This document shows positions 14,097-60,540 of a stretch of DNA of 64,000 nt, one piece after another. The notes under the pieces are model-generated. The model worked only from the letters and a program-made list of their open reading frames with translations, was not told the origin of the DNA and made no database searches. Location: assembly GCA_007922225.1 (NCBI GenBank), contig ML680086.1, positions 7,138,065-7,202,064 on the forward strand. The letters run 5' to 3'. This DNA comes from Emydura subglobosa (lineage: Eukaryota; Chordata; Testudines; Chelidae). The position numbers and the translations under genes were made by a program. Within the stretch, counting starts at the first letter, position 1; every line of letters begins with the position of its first letter.

Positions 14097-14102
14097 TTTA
14101 TT
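14097..14102 (-). promoter_or_regulatory. Polyadenylation signal of the IL-17-like gene (AATAAA, minus strand)
   Basis: TTTATT on the plus strand reads AATAAA on the minus strand, about 1 kb after the IL-17-like stop codon. It is the first canonical hexamer I noticed in that direction, so the 3' UTR would be about 990 bases. Confidence 0.4.
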
Positions 14103-15089: not shown

Positions 15090-15312
15090 TCAAGGAAAAC
15101 TGCAAATGCAAAACTGAGCGACTTGCAGGAGGCTGGGCTGGTAAACGTACTGACCTGCCTCACACTGGCCGGATTTCTGCAGCACCGGCACCTCCTGGTA
15201 AAAGGGCTCGCTCCGCACAGACCTGTCCTCCTTCTGGTCTATCAGGCAGCCCTCACATAGGCAGTACGCTTCCACCATCCTCCGGGGATACCGGCGGGGG
15301 TCTTCGTTGACT
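15090..15312 (-). CDS. IL-17-like gene, terminal coding exon (cystine-knot region)
   Basis: Acceptor 'ctcaacag' precedes 15,312. The exon gives one base to the split Arg codon, then 73 residues and a TGA at 15,090-15,092. It encodes NEDPRRYP, the CLCEGC block, a conserved-looking SEPFYQEVPVL strand and the closing FCICSFP. Human IL-17A has the matching blocks NEDPERYP, C....C and VGCTCV. The frame stays open across a GTCAGT at 15,149-15,154 that could be mistaken for a donor; the cysteines beyond it show it is not used. Confidence 0.92.
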
Positions 15313-16351
15313 CTGTTGAGACAAAGGGGATTAATGAGGTCACCTAATAAAATAGAGCGGTGGCACTTGAGCTAGGGGTGGAAAGGGTTAATAGTGCTGC
15401 TCCTCCCTCCCACCCCTGCCATGTGTGGCGCTGCACTGACATTCAGGAGCTGATTGGTGGTGGCTGGGCAGTGTTCGACTGAGCTCACAGGTGGGAAACT
15501 GAGGCACAGAGTGGGACAAATGCCACAGTGTCACTAACCAGTCAGCACTACCATGGTGCCTGCGGTGCATGGCAGTCCGGTCCCCGCTGCCGTGTTCAGC
15601 ACGACCTGTGATTAAAAAATGGCCCTATGAACCTGAGCCAGCAACAGCTCGATGGGGTGTAGGCTGTAGCTATTGGCAGCACTCCCATGTCTTGGTTAGT
15701 TTCCTTCCCCGGGGTGTCCGACTGCGAAGTGCAGTATGCCCCTGGAATGTGTCGAGATGCTTTTAAGAGGGACATGTTCTAGATGTGCCACGGAGAGTGA
15801 TAATTAATCCTGCAGAACCAGCCATCCACCCTCTCGAGGGGAGGAGGTGGGTCAGAGAAAGGAAATGCCGTGCCACCCTGGAGAGAGATGGGGGTGGGGT
15901 GTTTCCACGTTCTGAAGCCCAGCGGCAGTGCCTGAACCCAGACGCCCTTTGCTCCTCTGTCCGCGGCTTACCTGTACGCCCACGGTGAGGTGCTCACATC
16001 CTGGAAGCGGGACGAGGTCTGGCTGACGTTTACCGGGCATGACTTCAGGGCCTGGCCGGGTAAAACAGCCTCCGTTGGAGCCAGTAAGCCAACACCTGGA
16101 GCAAGATGGCGGCTGAGCATGGATTGTAGTTCTGCATCGGAGGGTTCCTGGCAGGGAATGTGGGCACCGAGCGTCTGGCCGACAGCTAAGCACAGCAGGA
16201 TCTGGGCAGCCAATTCCACCTGCTGAACAAATACATGGTGGAAAGTGACTTCGCTTGGACACGATCAGATAAGGTCCACGGGAGCTGCTTTGTTCAGCAG
16301 CCAGGCAGGGGCCTGCTGCATCACCTGAAGGTGCTCTCCCTTCCTGGGCAT
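15090..16351 (-). CDS. IL-17 family cytokine gene (IL-17A/F-like with B/D-like cysteine pattern)
   Basis: This gene encodes a small secreted cytokine. IL-17 proteins act outside the cell as dimers on IL-17 receptors and switch on NF-kB and MAPK-driven inflammatory and epithelial defence genes. Counting from the GTG codon at 16,219 the product has 156 residues. Residues 5-19 are a hydrophobic leader, and an N-V-S glycosylation site is at 64. The family block STSPWAYR is at 76-83, NEDPRRYP at 85-92 and CLCEGC at 100-105. The terminal CIC is at 151-153. The knot cysteines C100, C105, C151 and C153 are all present, with extra C61, C102 and C133. Exon 15,972-16,219 ends AG|gtaagc and joins 15,312 (acag|AGTC), rebuilding the Arg codon exactly. 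The GTG is not a usual animal start, so a short first exon is needed; the ATG at 16,349-16,351 is the best candidate. Which IL-17 paralogue this is cannot be decided by eye. Confidence 0.9.
15475..15560 (-). repeat. MIR-like SINE in the IL-17-like intron
   Basis: 'gtgggaaactgaggcacaga' and 'gccacagtgtcactaaccag' are the reverse complement of the MIR 'cctcagtttcc' and 'tgtgac...' region. It lies inside the 659-bp intron between 15,312 and 15,972. Confidence 0.5.
15972..16219 (-). CDS. IL-17-like gene, middle coding exon (signal peptide to SPW block)
   Basis: 82 codons plus AG, ending in the donor GTAAGC. It encodes the hydrophobic leader (ILLCLAVGQTLGA), a variable N-terminal arm with C61 and the N64 glycosylation site, and the STSPWAYR block at the exon border. 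An intron right after SPW-x-x-R is typical of IL-17 genes. The 5' border is a good acceptor (ttgttcagcag) directly before GTG, in phase 0. Confidence 0.88.
16325..16351 (-). CDS. Candidate first coding exon of the IL-17-like gene
   Basis: ATG followed by eight codons (MPRKGEHLQ) ends at CAG|GTGATG. A 105-bp intron (16,220-16,324) would then join it in phase 0 to the GTG at 16,219, giving a 165-residue product. Human IL17A also splits its leader after about nine residues (MTPGKTSLV), which is why I propose it. The donor and the ATG context are weak and the intron is very short. A more distant first exon is possible. Confidence 0.35.
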
Positions 16352-17157: not shown

Positions 17158-18480
17158 TTTCCACTGCACATGTCCCAAGTAGCAATTGTGACGCTGTCTG
17201 GATGAGGGGGACCATTTATGATATTATTTAACATCAACATTTCAAAATTACAATAATTCAGACGGGATAGACCATGTCAGGTACCATTAGAAAGGTTAGA
17301 ATTTGCTAAGGATGATGATATTGTTTGTGTTTGGGTCATATTTGTATTGGAAGTACGGGTATGTTTGATGTATCGGTATTTCAACTTGTGCTGTGTTTCT
17401 GGGCGACTCCCCAGACAGGATGGCAGCAGCAATAAACTGCTTAATGGCCCATTAGGGGAACCCAAAGTTACAATAAACCCAGGGAAAGAACCCAGGGGCC
17501 ACACCTTATGAGTCACCAGGACTTGCCCAGGTGACCCTGGAGTTCCATTTTATTTCTGTAAAAACGAGAGTTGTGTGTCACTTTAAAGATTAACAAATGT
17601 AATTGTTGTAGGCATAAGCTTTTGTGAGACTCAGCTTTTAAAAATAAAAGAAAGCTTATGCCTACAAAAATTACATTTGTTAGTCTTTAAAGTGACACAC
17701 AACTCTCGTTGTTTTTACTGTATACAGACTAACACGGCTACCCCTCTGGAACCATTTTATTTCTGTAAATTTCCACAAGCAGCCTGGCAAAGGAACAGAA
17801 ACAGCAGCTGCACCCCCAGCCACCCATATTGTCTTCAGTCTTCTTCCTGCTTCCCACCTAAGGCTCAATATCAACTCAGCTGCTACTGAAGCCATAATTG
17901 TGAAACAAAGGACTGAGAGACCCATCCAGGTGGGATTGGATGTACACCAGAGGGACTGTACAAGCCTGCAAACTCCATGATTCTACTGAACACTTGGTAC
18001 ATATGGACTTACAAATCATTTGTATGTATGTGATTGCTTTAATCACTTAACACCTCTCACCTACTTTATTTCTTGCCTTTTATAATAAATCTTTAGTTTT
18101 AGTTACTGATTGGCTGGCAGCGTGGTATTTTGGGTAAGATCCAAATTCATATTGAGCTGTTAATGTGGCTGACTCTGTGGGGTCAGGAGAACTTTTTGGT
18201 AAAGAGCATAGAGTTTTAAATAACTGGTCTCTTTACTGGACCTAGTGGCTGATTGAGAGTCAGACTGAAATGCAATAAAGGGGGCTGTGTATACTTTTGT
18301 GTTAGCTTCTTGACAACCAGTATAGGGAATCAGAAGCACTGTTTGTAGCTGGTTGGGAAGTCTGACTTCAGTGTCACCCACCAGTGCTGGGTGAATCTGC
18401 TCTCCTTTTGCAGCTTGCCCTGACCGTGGCATTTTCAGGTGGTCTACCCTAGGCATGGACAGGTCACAGCAGTAAAGAGG
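17158..18480. repeat. Probable interspersed repeat, split by a SINE insertion
   Basis: The stretch from 'acgctgtctggatgagg' onward ('cagacgggatagaccatg', 'tggcagcagcaataaactgc') to about 18,480 looks like a long non-coding reptile repeat of LTR or DNA type. I know the style but not the name. It is interrupted at 17,563-17,751 by a SINE with a clear target duplication. Ends are not defined. Confidence 0.35.
17563..17751. mobile_element. Inverted-duplicate SINE with 18-bp target site duplication
   Basis: Two copies of the same SINE tail face each other: 'gagttgtgtgtcactttaaa' on the left (from 17,568) and its reverse complement on the right (to about 17,708). The arms are about 60 bp with only two or three mismatches and a roughly 30-bp spacer. 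The right side ends in 'agactaacacggctacccct'. The whole is flanked by the 18-bp direct repeat ccattttatttctgtaaa at 17,545-17,562 and 17,752-17,769. The target duplication shows it entered as one unit, and the RNA would fold into a long hairpin. Confidence 0.75.
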
Positions 18481-33129: not shown

Positions 33130-33925
33130 GAGAAAGTCAAAGGTAATGGTTTATAAAGTGCTGTGCTACACTTAGGGAAGAAAAAGCAAATGCACAAATA
33201 CAGAATGGGGGGTAACTGGCCTGGCAGCAGCACAACTGAGAAGGATCTGGGAATTGGGATGGATCACAACCTCCACAAGAGTCAGCAATGCCATGCTGTT
33301 GCAAAAAAAGCAAATGCAATTTTAGATTGCATCAACAGAGGCATAGCGTGCAAGTCATGGGAGGTGATAGCACCGCTCAACTTGGTGCTGGTTAGGCCTC
33401 AGTTGGAGCATTGTGTCCAATCTTCTTCACCAATGTATAGAAAGGATGTAGAGCAACTGAAAGGATCCAGAGGCGAGCAACCAAGATGATGCAAGGGATG
33501 GAAGGCAAGCCACATGAGCAAAGGCTGAAGGAGCTGGGTATATTTAGTTTGGAAAAGAGGAGATTGAGGGGGGACATGATAACAGCCTTCAAATACTTGA
33601 AAGGCTGCCATAAAAAAGATGGAGAAAAGTTGTTCCCTCTTGCCATAGAGGGCAGGACAAGAGGCAATGGGTTCAAACTACAGCAAGGCAAATTTAGATT
33701 AAATCTCAGGGAAAACTTCCTACCTATAAGAACAGTAGGACAATAGAGCAGACTGCCTAGGGAGGTCGTGGAAGCTCCTTCACTGGAGGTTTTCACAAGG
33801 AGGCTGGATAGCCATCTGTCTGGGATGGTTTAGACGCAACTCGTCCTGCATCTTGGCAGGGAGTTAGACCAGACGACCCTTGTGGTCCATTCTGACCCTG
33901 TTGTTCTATGGAAGGGACAAGACTC
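33130..33925 (+). mobile_element. CR1 LINE, 5'-truncated ORF2 C-terminus and 3' tail
   Basis: Two frames (33,163-33,489 and 33,486-33,746) together cover the C-terminal part of a CR1 ORF2: STTEKDLGIGMDHNLHKSQQC, then VRPQLEHCVQ, then FSLEKRRLRGDMITAFKYL. One frameshift lies near 33,470-33,486. The 3' tail is 'cattctgaccctgttgttct'. It lacks the reverse transcriptase core and cannot move by itself. Confidence 0.8.
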
Positions 33926-58076: not shown

Positions 58077-58932
58077 ACATAGAATCATAGAATCATAGAG
58101 TTGGAAGGGACCTCAGGAGGTATCTAGTCCAACCCCCTGCTCAAAGCAGGACTAACCTCAGCTAAATCATCACAGCCAGGGCTTTGTCAAGCCGCAGCTT
58201 AAAAACGTTTAAAGATGGCGATTTCGCCACCTCCCTAGGTAACCCATTCCAATGCTTCACCACGCTCCTAGTGAAAAACTTTTTCCTAATATCCAACCTA
58301 GACCTCCCCCACTGCAACTTGAGACCATTGCTCCTAGTTCTGTCATCTACCACCATTGAGAACAACCTAGCTCCATCCTCCCTGGAACCCCCTTTCAGGT
58401 AGTTAAAGGCTGCTATCAAATCCCCCTCACTCTTCTCTTTTGCAGAGTAAACAAGCCTAGTTCCTTCAGACTCTCCTCATAAGTCTTGTGCCCCAGCCCC
58501 CTAATCATTTTTGTTGCCCTCCGCTGGATTCTCTCCAACTTCTCCACATCCTTTTTGTAGTGGAGAGCCCAAAACTGGACACAATACTCCAAATGCGGCC
58601 TCACCAATGCCGAATAGAGGGGAATAATCATTTCCCTTGATCTGCTGGCAACGCTCCTACTAATGCAGCCCAATATGCTATTAGCCTTCTTGGCAACCAG
58701 GACACACTGCTGACTCTTATCCAGCTTCTTAGCCACTGTAACCCCCAGATCCTTTTCTGCAGATCTACTGCCTAGCCCGTCGGTCCCCAGTCTGTAACTG
58801 TGCATGGGATTCTTCCGTCCTAAGTGCAGGACTCTGCACTTGTCCTTGTTGAACCTCATCAGATTTCTTTTGGCCCAATCCTTCAATTTGTCTAGGTCAC
58901 TCTGTATCCTATCCCTACCTTCCAGGGTATCA
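58077..58932 (-). mobile_element. CR1 LINE, 5'-truncated, inserted in an older repeat
   Basis: On the minus strand, 58,416-58,932 encodes the CR1 ORF2 C-terminal region: DKCRVLHLGRKNPMHSY, SAEKDLGVTVAKKLDKSQQC, RPHLEYCVQFWA. It continues after one frameshift in 58,162-58,419 (AAFNYLKGG, VKHWNGLPREV). The 3' end is the 'agaatcatagaatcatag' microsatellite at 58,080-58,100. It is the best preserved CR1 here. Flanks 'tgattcagtagtccatcc' and 'cacctaatttaggcatttgc' look like two halves of one older repeat. Confidence 0.88.
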
Positions 58933-60540
58933 AGCACTCACCTAATTTAGGCATTTGCTTCAATCCTGTTAAGTCCACTGGAGATTATGCGTGTTCTTAA
59001 GCACTTTGCTGAGCTGAAGCCCAAGACTGAGCATGGTAGAGCAGGAGGGATCACGCTCCTTTCCAAACCCAGATTGTTGCTCGTCTCACATCAATCGACT
59101 CAATACACGTCATCGGCAGGTCGATGTAGAGCTTAACAAAGCGACACATTGTTACCGCGTCTTTACAGGAACTCCTTTGCCATGGCTACTGCTACTTAGT
59201 TACACAGCATCACCCCACATTTGCCATGAGAAGGCCTCTGTCACGCTGCTGGACAAGATCTGTGCGAATAGCGACCTGCCGTTGTACGCAGACCTCTTCA
59301 AACACCCACCAGCTGGCTTGTCTGCTAGACGCCCTTTATGGTCATTTATGCCACCACAGGACATGACGGTGAGATGTGCTTGGTGCATGCACTCTCTGGT
59401 CACTGACCCAGCCATCTGCCCACCAGGTTTTGATCTGCCAAGGCACCTGTGGTCATCTCGGAACCGGTTTCGAAAATGACAGGGCAACTGAACAGCCAAT
59501 CTCTTTAAATGGGGTTTTTCTAATGACCAACGATGCAGCTGCAGTCAACTTCAGACTATGTTGCATATCGTTGTCAAGTGCTCACTGACTTATTTCAACA
59601 GTAGGCTACTGGCTCTCCACCTGGCGGATGATGACACCATTAAATGGCTGGGCACATTGCGCATATGCTGATGAGCAGAGGTGAGCCACACAAGAGATGG
59701 GGCAAGCACCTAACACTTCTTGCTGTGCAGAATGAAGATGAAGCTGGAATGGCCGGGACCCTTTAATAACATCACATGCTTCTCTAGTACTTTGCCCAAG
59801 AATCTCAAAGTATTATGCCTTGTAACAGCCTATCTCATAGACAAATATTTACTACGCCCACTTAACAGTCTCATAGTATCACAGTCCATCTTAAACAGGA
59901 GATGATTAGTAACCCAAACTTCTACAACTACAGTCACAAACCAACAAGCTTTCACCCATCTTGAGTTCCAGCTTTCTTTCTCTTGTTTACCACAGACCAC
60001 GTGCTGTCTGAAATACTATACAGCACACAGAGCCATCCAACAGCTGAATTATATGCTGCAAATAAACATACCATTATAAGCAGATGGAGGAACTGAGATA
60101 CAGAAAGTGACTTGCTTGAAGGTCATACAGCAAATCAATGGGAAGGCTGGGAAGAAATCCCAGGGATCCTGCTTCCCAGTCACCCACTCTAGCTACTAGA
60201 TACTACTTCTCCAACAGACCCTAAGTTAAGGCCACCACCTCCTTCAGGACACGGATATGACAAAAGAGCTTACATCGCCACAGAAAGGGGAAAAACAAAC
60301 ATACAACTTTCCCATGAAGGAACCCGGAGCACTGGGTGCAATGAAGGGAAATATGATTGGACTACTAAGAAGTATGGAGATAGCCAATGAAATTTAGAAA
60401 ATGTTTCATCAAGAAAATCATGTGGCAGTACCAAGGGGAAGAACTGGTACTGGAATTTAGCTTCAGCTAAGGTGACATTCCTGTGACACTTCCTGGGGTT
60501 GCCCTGCATTGTGAGGCACCTTGCTACCACCTGCCTATGA
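58933..60540 (-). other. NECAB3 intron, middle part
   Basis: The remainder of the older repeat runs to about 59,030. A reverse MIR is at about 60,085-60,205 ('gatggaggaactgagataca'). Otherwise unassigned. Confidence 0.35.

Follow-up and report, generated by a model that had tools for sequence, protein, structure and literature searches.

We analysed a 64,000-nucleotide stretch of the Emydura subglobosa genome (the window; C156:7138065-7202064 of a 1.93 Gb genome). It carries an intact interleukin-17 (IL-17) gene on the minus strand, between CBFA2T2 and NECAB3. We use the name IL17X for this gene and for its lineage. We are fairly confident that this three-exon gene belongs to an IL-17 lineage of its own, which turtles, alligator and amphibians share and to which sharks and rays probably belong. 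We are likewise fairly confident that its predicted product is a secreted cystine-knot cytokine likely to act via SEFIR-type receptors.

Three coding exons on the minus strand are joined by clean splices into a single open frame for 160 amino acids. Coding exon 1 (21831-21820; donor GTGAGT) is only 12 bases long and holds the start codon, 5.6 kb upstream of exon 2. It reads ATG CAG CTA AAG and encodes MQLK, the same first four residues as in the predicted Emydura macquarii protein. Coding exon 2 (16219-15972), bounded by the acceptor CAGCAG (TTTGTTCAGCAG) and the donor GTAAGC, encodes the remainder of the leader, the N-terminal cysteine stretch (C27 to C65) and the SPW block. Coding exon 3 (15312-15090), with the acceptor CAACAG (TTTGTCTCAACAG), encodes the NEDPRRYP motif and the knot cysteines C104, C109, C155 and C157, and ends in the stop codon TGA. 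A candidate polyadenylation signal, AATAAA, lies on the same strand at 14097-14102, 987 bases past the stop, by sequence match. The first-pass annotation had placed a complete minus-strand IL-17 gene within 15090..16351. Exons 2 and 3 of that call are real and in one frame, but the short exon 1 was missed and the upstream edge at 16351 was set about 130 bases too far upstream. Inside intron 1, at about 17550-17770 of the window, we also noticed by eye a short repeat in two copies of opposite orientation, which looks like a pair of turtle short interspersed elements.

The family assignment is firm. IL17X scores 77.3 bits against the Pfam IL17 domain (PF06083; cut-off 24), and the PF06083 match in the genome (C156:7153163-7153378) falls within exon 3. 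Residues C104, C109, C137, C155, C157, P83 and W84 are invariant across 62 aligned IL-17s, and IL17X shows the cystine-knot fold of the family. The intron after SPW.Y has the same phase in IL17X and in the turtle's own two A/F genes and its B and C genes. The donor at this intron reads TAC AG|GT in IL17X, both A/F genes and B, and TAC CG|GT in IL17C.

Performing an initial protein search, we retrieved 7 proteins from 38 candidates, all from turtles and alligator. The predicted E. macquarii protein, named 'interleukin-17D-like', matches IL17X except at position 76 (F for L; 159 of 160 residues identical). Full-length relatives come from three other turtles, at 65-83% identity, and from alligator, at 69%; IL17X is therefore more than a chance resemblance. 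Two further relatives are predicted as fragments: that of Gopherus evgoodei (P0007, 128 amino acids) has part of exon 3 followed by other sequence, and that of Eretmochelys (P0006, 86 amino acids) breaks off where exon 2 ends.

A profile built from five sequences gave 278 matches from 2422 candidates. Among the best 120 of these 278, frogs, caecilians and cartilaginous fish were matched, followed by IL-17D. A domain profile of 16 sequences gave 79 matches from 156 candidates; 43 of them reached E <= 3.4e-31 and the next match stood at 1.2e-19. The named proteins among the 43 are mostly called IL-17D or IL-17D-like. Five are called IL-17A-like, and IL-17B-like, IL-17C-like, IL-25-like and 'interleukin-17' occur once each; one more frog member, from the five-sequence search, is called IL-17F-like. 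With names so scattered, the group cannot be defined by them. Four members (P0021, P0023 and P0046, matched by both profiles, and P0035, matched by the five-sequence profile only) each have a whole reading frame on an 'lgn' contig of about 1-2 kb, a length that, set against the 5.6 kb intron of the turtle gene, hints that these entries may be transcripts.

By sequence comparison, frogs and caecilians also have the IL17X lineage, and sharks, rays and the elephant shark probably do. Among the matches listed, none from mammals, birds, squamates or teleosts belonged to the clade. Birds, squamates, tuatara and mammals are present in the database, and all of their listed proteins went by the names A, F, C or D. 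For ray-finned fish, the listed names were D and C only. The 79 matches of the 16-sequence profile included no IL-17N and no teleost A/F. The first-pass annotation had suggested a lineage lost in mammals and kept in reptiles. The separate lineage is upheld by the trees and clade tests described below, but the confinement to reptiles is not, as frogs and caecilians share it.

We compared IL17X with the named families in four trees. The first had 73 rows: the window gene with 21 tetrapod or unnamed members, 12 cartilaginous fish, 17 IL-17D, 12 IL-17A/F, 7 IL-17C, 2 IL-17B and 1 IL-25. The second was restricted to the domain, the third left out B and IL-25, and the fourth included them. No tree used all members, and the E. 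macquarii protein, a near copy of the window gene, was omitted. One of the two B rows was entered by hand, as was the single, long-branched human IL-25 row, which agrees with PDB 7uwj over residues 29-177.

In the 73-row tree, the turtle, alligator, frog and caecilian members formed an IL17X clade with support of 100/98. The cartilaginous fish formed a clade of their own (100/98), which joined the IL17X clade at 98/88. IL-17D, A/F and B formed separate starred clades, and IL-17C was supported at 95/67. The IL17X clade returned in the domain-only tree (100/94; with sharks 96/86), the third tree (100/98; with sharks 93/89) and the fourth tree (100/98). The end branch of the window gene measured 0.11-0.12. 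Performing approximately unbiased (AU) tests, we find that placing the window gene with IL-17D is rejected (p 0.005 in the third tree, 6e-5 in the fourth); thus plain IL17D, as annotated, is ruled out for this gene. Its placement with C (p 1.3e-4) and with A/F (p 1.2e-4) is rejected in the third tree. In the fourth tree, the same holds for B (p 0.0013, with two B rows, one of them hand-entered) and IL-25 (p 0.0099, with the hand-entered human sequence on its long branch as the sole row).

The same genome also has two A/F loci (C36) and one locus each for B (C34), C (C46) and D (C23). Since the clade tests reject these placements and separate A/F, B, C and D loci coexist with it, IL17X is, judged from sequence, not simply the turtle orthologue of A/F, B, C, D or IL-25. 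This is the outcome of the protein search and tree that the first-pass annotation had proposed as a check. IL17X and IL17D also lie on contigs of different length in Carettochelys, Rhinatrema, Discoglossus and Hymenochirus, where the clusters have one member each, and, less cleanly, in Alligator, where the IL17X cluster has seven members. Therefore, IL17X is not IL17D under another name.

We then turn to the position of the gene. The coding sequence of CBFA2T2 (plus strand) closes with a MYND zinc finger exon. The end of this exon, C156:7134870, precedes the window by about 3.2 kb and is 18.3 kb away from the IL17X stop. A tblastn query with a hand-entered human NECAB3 sequence matches NECAB3 exons at 56180-45365 of the window (minus strand), the first exons being unmatched. 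A PF03992 (ABM) search for NECAB genes gave no match, while the protein search did find them. The gene order is thus CBFA2T2-IL17X-NECAB3. The first-pass annotation had set the gene between a CBFA2T2-like 3' end and NECAB3, about 29 kb from the latter. Both genes do flank it, with the coding end of CBFA2T2 lying outside the window, which could contain no more of that gene than its untranslated end, and the 29 kb is borne out from exon 2; from exon 1 the distance is 23.5 kb. The annotation also knew of no IL-17 gene at this position in human, which agrees with the human gene order, where no named IL-17 is known at this place. Further out, an E2F-family exon (C156:7364942) and a PDZ exon (C156:6950551; the PDZ search is very broad) would presumably correspond to E2F1 and SNTA1 of human 20q11. 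Two open frames in the window, at 58416-58937 (minus) and 33157-33489 (plus), resemble by eye the end of a CR1-type long interspersed element reverse transcriptase.

A similar arrangement is found on C46. By sequence likeness, it carries the TAFH exons (3455087-3455921) and the MYND exon (3470137) of CBFA2T3, as well as CYBA (3768371-3772526). An intact-looking IL17C exon 2 lies beside CYBA, from about 3776803 upward, and a run of N at 3772800-3776627 covers the expected site of IL17C exon 3. The distance from IL17C to CBFA2T3 is 307 kb. A NECAB2-like exon sits at C46:30378291, 27 Mb beyond IL17C. We take the gene names in these blocks from sequence likeness and from human genes. In this genome, the C156 block with CBFA2T2, NECAB3 and IL17X thus has a paralogous block on C46, made up of CBFA2T3, IL17C and, far off, the NECAB2-like exon. 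With random placement, the probability for at least one of four other IL-17 loci to come this close to one of two CBFA2T paralogues is about 0.25%, a figure computed post hoc. We had also considered that IL17C was lost and replaced by IL17X, and dropped this because of the intact-looking IL17C exon 2 beside CYBA. A decayed extra IL17C exon-3-like fragment lies 1.35 Mb from CYBA (C46:5117718-5117861); it has no SPW exon joined to it, breaks of frame, and CLI for CLC and GRTC for GCTC. Elsewhere, a NECAB1-like exon was found by protein search at C7:68815250 and a weak TAFH match at C7:69470830. Two stretches, C873:7219210-7220337 and C877:6457378-6458507, gave equal-score TAFH matches in both exons and one equal-score PDZ match each; they are perhaps two haplotype copies of one stretch.

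IL17X is likely an old IL-17 branch that was lost in mammals, birds and squamates. If a CBFA2T-NECAB-IL17 block had been duplicated as a whole, one would expect CBFA2T and IL17 to be paired on two chromosomes, as they are here. The counterpart of CBFA2T2-IL17X-NECAB3 is IL17C near CBFA2T3. This suggests that IL17X dates from the genome duplications of early vertebrates and disappeared later from mammals, birds and squamates. A bolder reading, to which we give somewhat less than even odds, is a seventh jawed-vertebrate IL-17 subfamily that would have been born together with IL17C in those duplications (CBFA2T2 against CBFA2T3 block), would have stayed functional in sharks, amphibians, turtles and crocodilians to this day, and would have been lost separately in mammals, birds and squamates. 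Several results weigh against these readings. The position of the locus was examined in this genome only. That birds, squamates, mammals and teleosts have no member was read from lists of protein matches and not from genomes; as the protein search requires shared five-residue words and the best 120 of 278 matches were listed, this absence is provisional, for teleosts above all. When the whole IL17X clade is moved, instead of the window gene alone, it is not rejected with C (p 0.152) or A/F (p 0.114) in the domain-only tree or with B (p 0.143) in the fourth tree; with D, p is 0.183 in the domain-only tree and 0.0496 in the third. Its union with IL-25 gave p 0.035 in the fourth tree. In the domain-only and third trees, respectively, IL17X, sharks and D form a joint clade in the best tree at only 82/27 and 62/19, and the joint clade with C, absent from the best tree, is not rejected (p 0.416, 0.447), nor is that with A/F (p 0.383, 0.415). 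The sharks with A/F are not rejected either (p 0.222, 0.157). The trees thus leave a sister place to A/F, B, C or D possible for IL17X. Moreover, among D, A/F and C, the named family nearest to IL17X by profile is D, which speaks against an origin as the duplication partner of IL17C.

The IL17X lineage might instead be the sister of IL-17D, from an old duplication that preceded the divergence of sharks from bony vertebrates, with an IL-17D-like action and a later move to the CBFA2T2 position. We hold this to be a serious, if somewhat doubtful, alternative. The IL17X profile scores 190 against D over residues 25-158, the N-terminal cysteine stretch included, compared with 135 against A/F and 123 against C; the six other pairs between different named or shark groups, these two included, range over 101-141 (C-D 128, A/F-D 101, shark-D 141, shark-A/F 141). 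Most named members are also called IL-17D or IL-17D-like. However, the joint clade of IL17X, sharks and D has weak support, the union with D without sharks gives the AU values stated above (p 0.183 and 0.0496), and on this view only coincidence, of the rough, post hoc chance already stated, would have put IL17 near CBFA2T on two chromosomes.

That IL17X represents, in tetrapods and sharks, the gene known as IL-17N in teleosts is rather unlikely. Among the protein matches listed, none bore the name IL-17N. In papers, IL-17N is called teleost-specific or fish-specific (PMC11942210, PMC7178287), which makes it the one extra IL-17 so described, and a sea bass study relates it to IL-17D (PMC7178287). 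However, other papers group it with IL-17A/F (PMC11942210, PMC8187396, PMC4929537), give it two exons in snakehead (PMC11942210), compared with three in IL17X, and list it on chromosome 9 in medaka (PMC4517768). We give still less credence to the reading that the shark and ray genes are cartilaginous-fish relatives of IL-17A/F and not orthologues, so that the lineage would be tetrapod only. Five shark or ray members are named IL-17A-like, the shark profile scores equally with A/F and D, the union of sharks with A/F is not rejected, and sharks are without the middle cysteine of CLC. Against this, the shark profile matches the tetrapod IL17X profile end to end, leader included, with a score of 254; the joint clade recurs in three trees; and the F/Y-C-x-C ending in place of GCTC is common to both. 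Finally, a recent relocated duplicate of a turtle IL-17 gene, which the first-pass annotation had also offered, is contradicted by the trees and clade tests: relatives live in alligator, frogs and caecilians, the end branch is 0.11-0.12 and the window gene is rejected with each named family. We consider it ruled out for practical purposes.

IL-17s are secreted cystine-knot dimers that join two SEFIR-domain receptors and signal via Act1 to NF-kB and mitogen-activated protein kinases. A structure model of IL17X has a hydrophobic helix at residues 3-21, and from this first helix the product is predicted to be secreted. By analogy with other IL-17s, it would form a dimer, and the dimer may signal via receptors of the IL-17R family to NF-kB/MAPK and epithelial defence genes. 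The genome holds six SEFIR matches without stops, which we counted as five loci (C4:11606282; C35:717710; C35:735858; C35:22429205, with 22426521; and C35:24665676). By human gene order, these presumably represent IL17RA, RE, RC, RD and RB. It is quite probable, by the same analogy, that the predicted IL17X product is a ligand of the SEFIR receptor system.

IL-17 cytokines are central in mucosal defence and are drug targets, and the history of the family has been told from mammals and teleosts. In the passages and listings covered by our searches of open-licence papers, including PMC8353272, PMC6333709 and PMC6070626, no tetrapod IL-17 at the CBFA2T2-NECAB3 locus is described. The elephant shark is credited with IL-17A/F, B, C and D (PMC6795676); its IL17X member may be among these under another name. 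If our reading is true, the number of ancestral IL-17 genes would have to be revised, since frogs, turtles and probably sharks would have retained a subfamily that mammals, birds and lizards are missing. It would explain why relatives bear D, A-like, B-like, C-like, F-like and 25-like names in databases. Having been lost in mammals, birds and squamates, the lineage would be one that immunology has never met, and IL17X would offer a concrete gene to probe what IL-17 receptors bound before that loss.

Compared with the known systems, fish IL-17N resembles IL17X in being an extra IL-17 outside A-F by name. Set side by side by description, it differs in being teleost-only, in its two exons in snakehead and in its frequent grouping with A/F (PMC11942210). 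Unlike the turtle's own A/F proteins, which read CRH, IL17X has the middle cysteine of CLC. The shark members are likewise without this cysteine, but have in common with tetrapod IL17X the F/Y-C-x-C ending. IL-17C shares the family domain and a place near CBFA2T3, the paralogue of the IL17X neighbour CBFA2T2; it differs in that the turtle has its own IL17C exon 2 beside CYBA, and the window gene is rejected as a C member. IL-17D is alike in SPW.YR, EAYCLC.GC, the spacing of the knot cysteines, the N-terminal cysteine stretch and the top profile score of the named families compared. However, it is a distinct gene in the same genomes, from which the clade test separates the window gene; D proteins have about 210 residues with a long C-terminal tail and end in VGCTC, whereas IL17X has 160 residues without the tail and ends in QFCIC.
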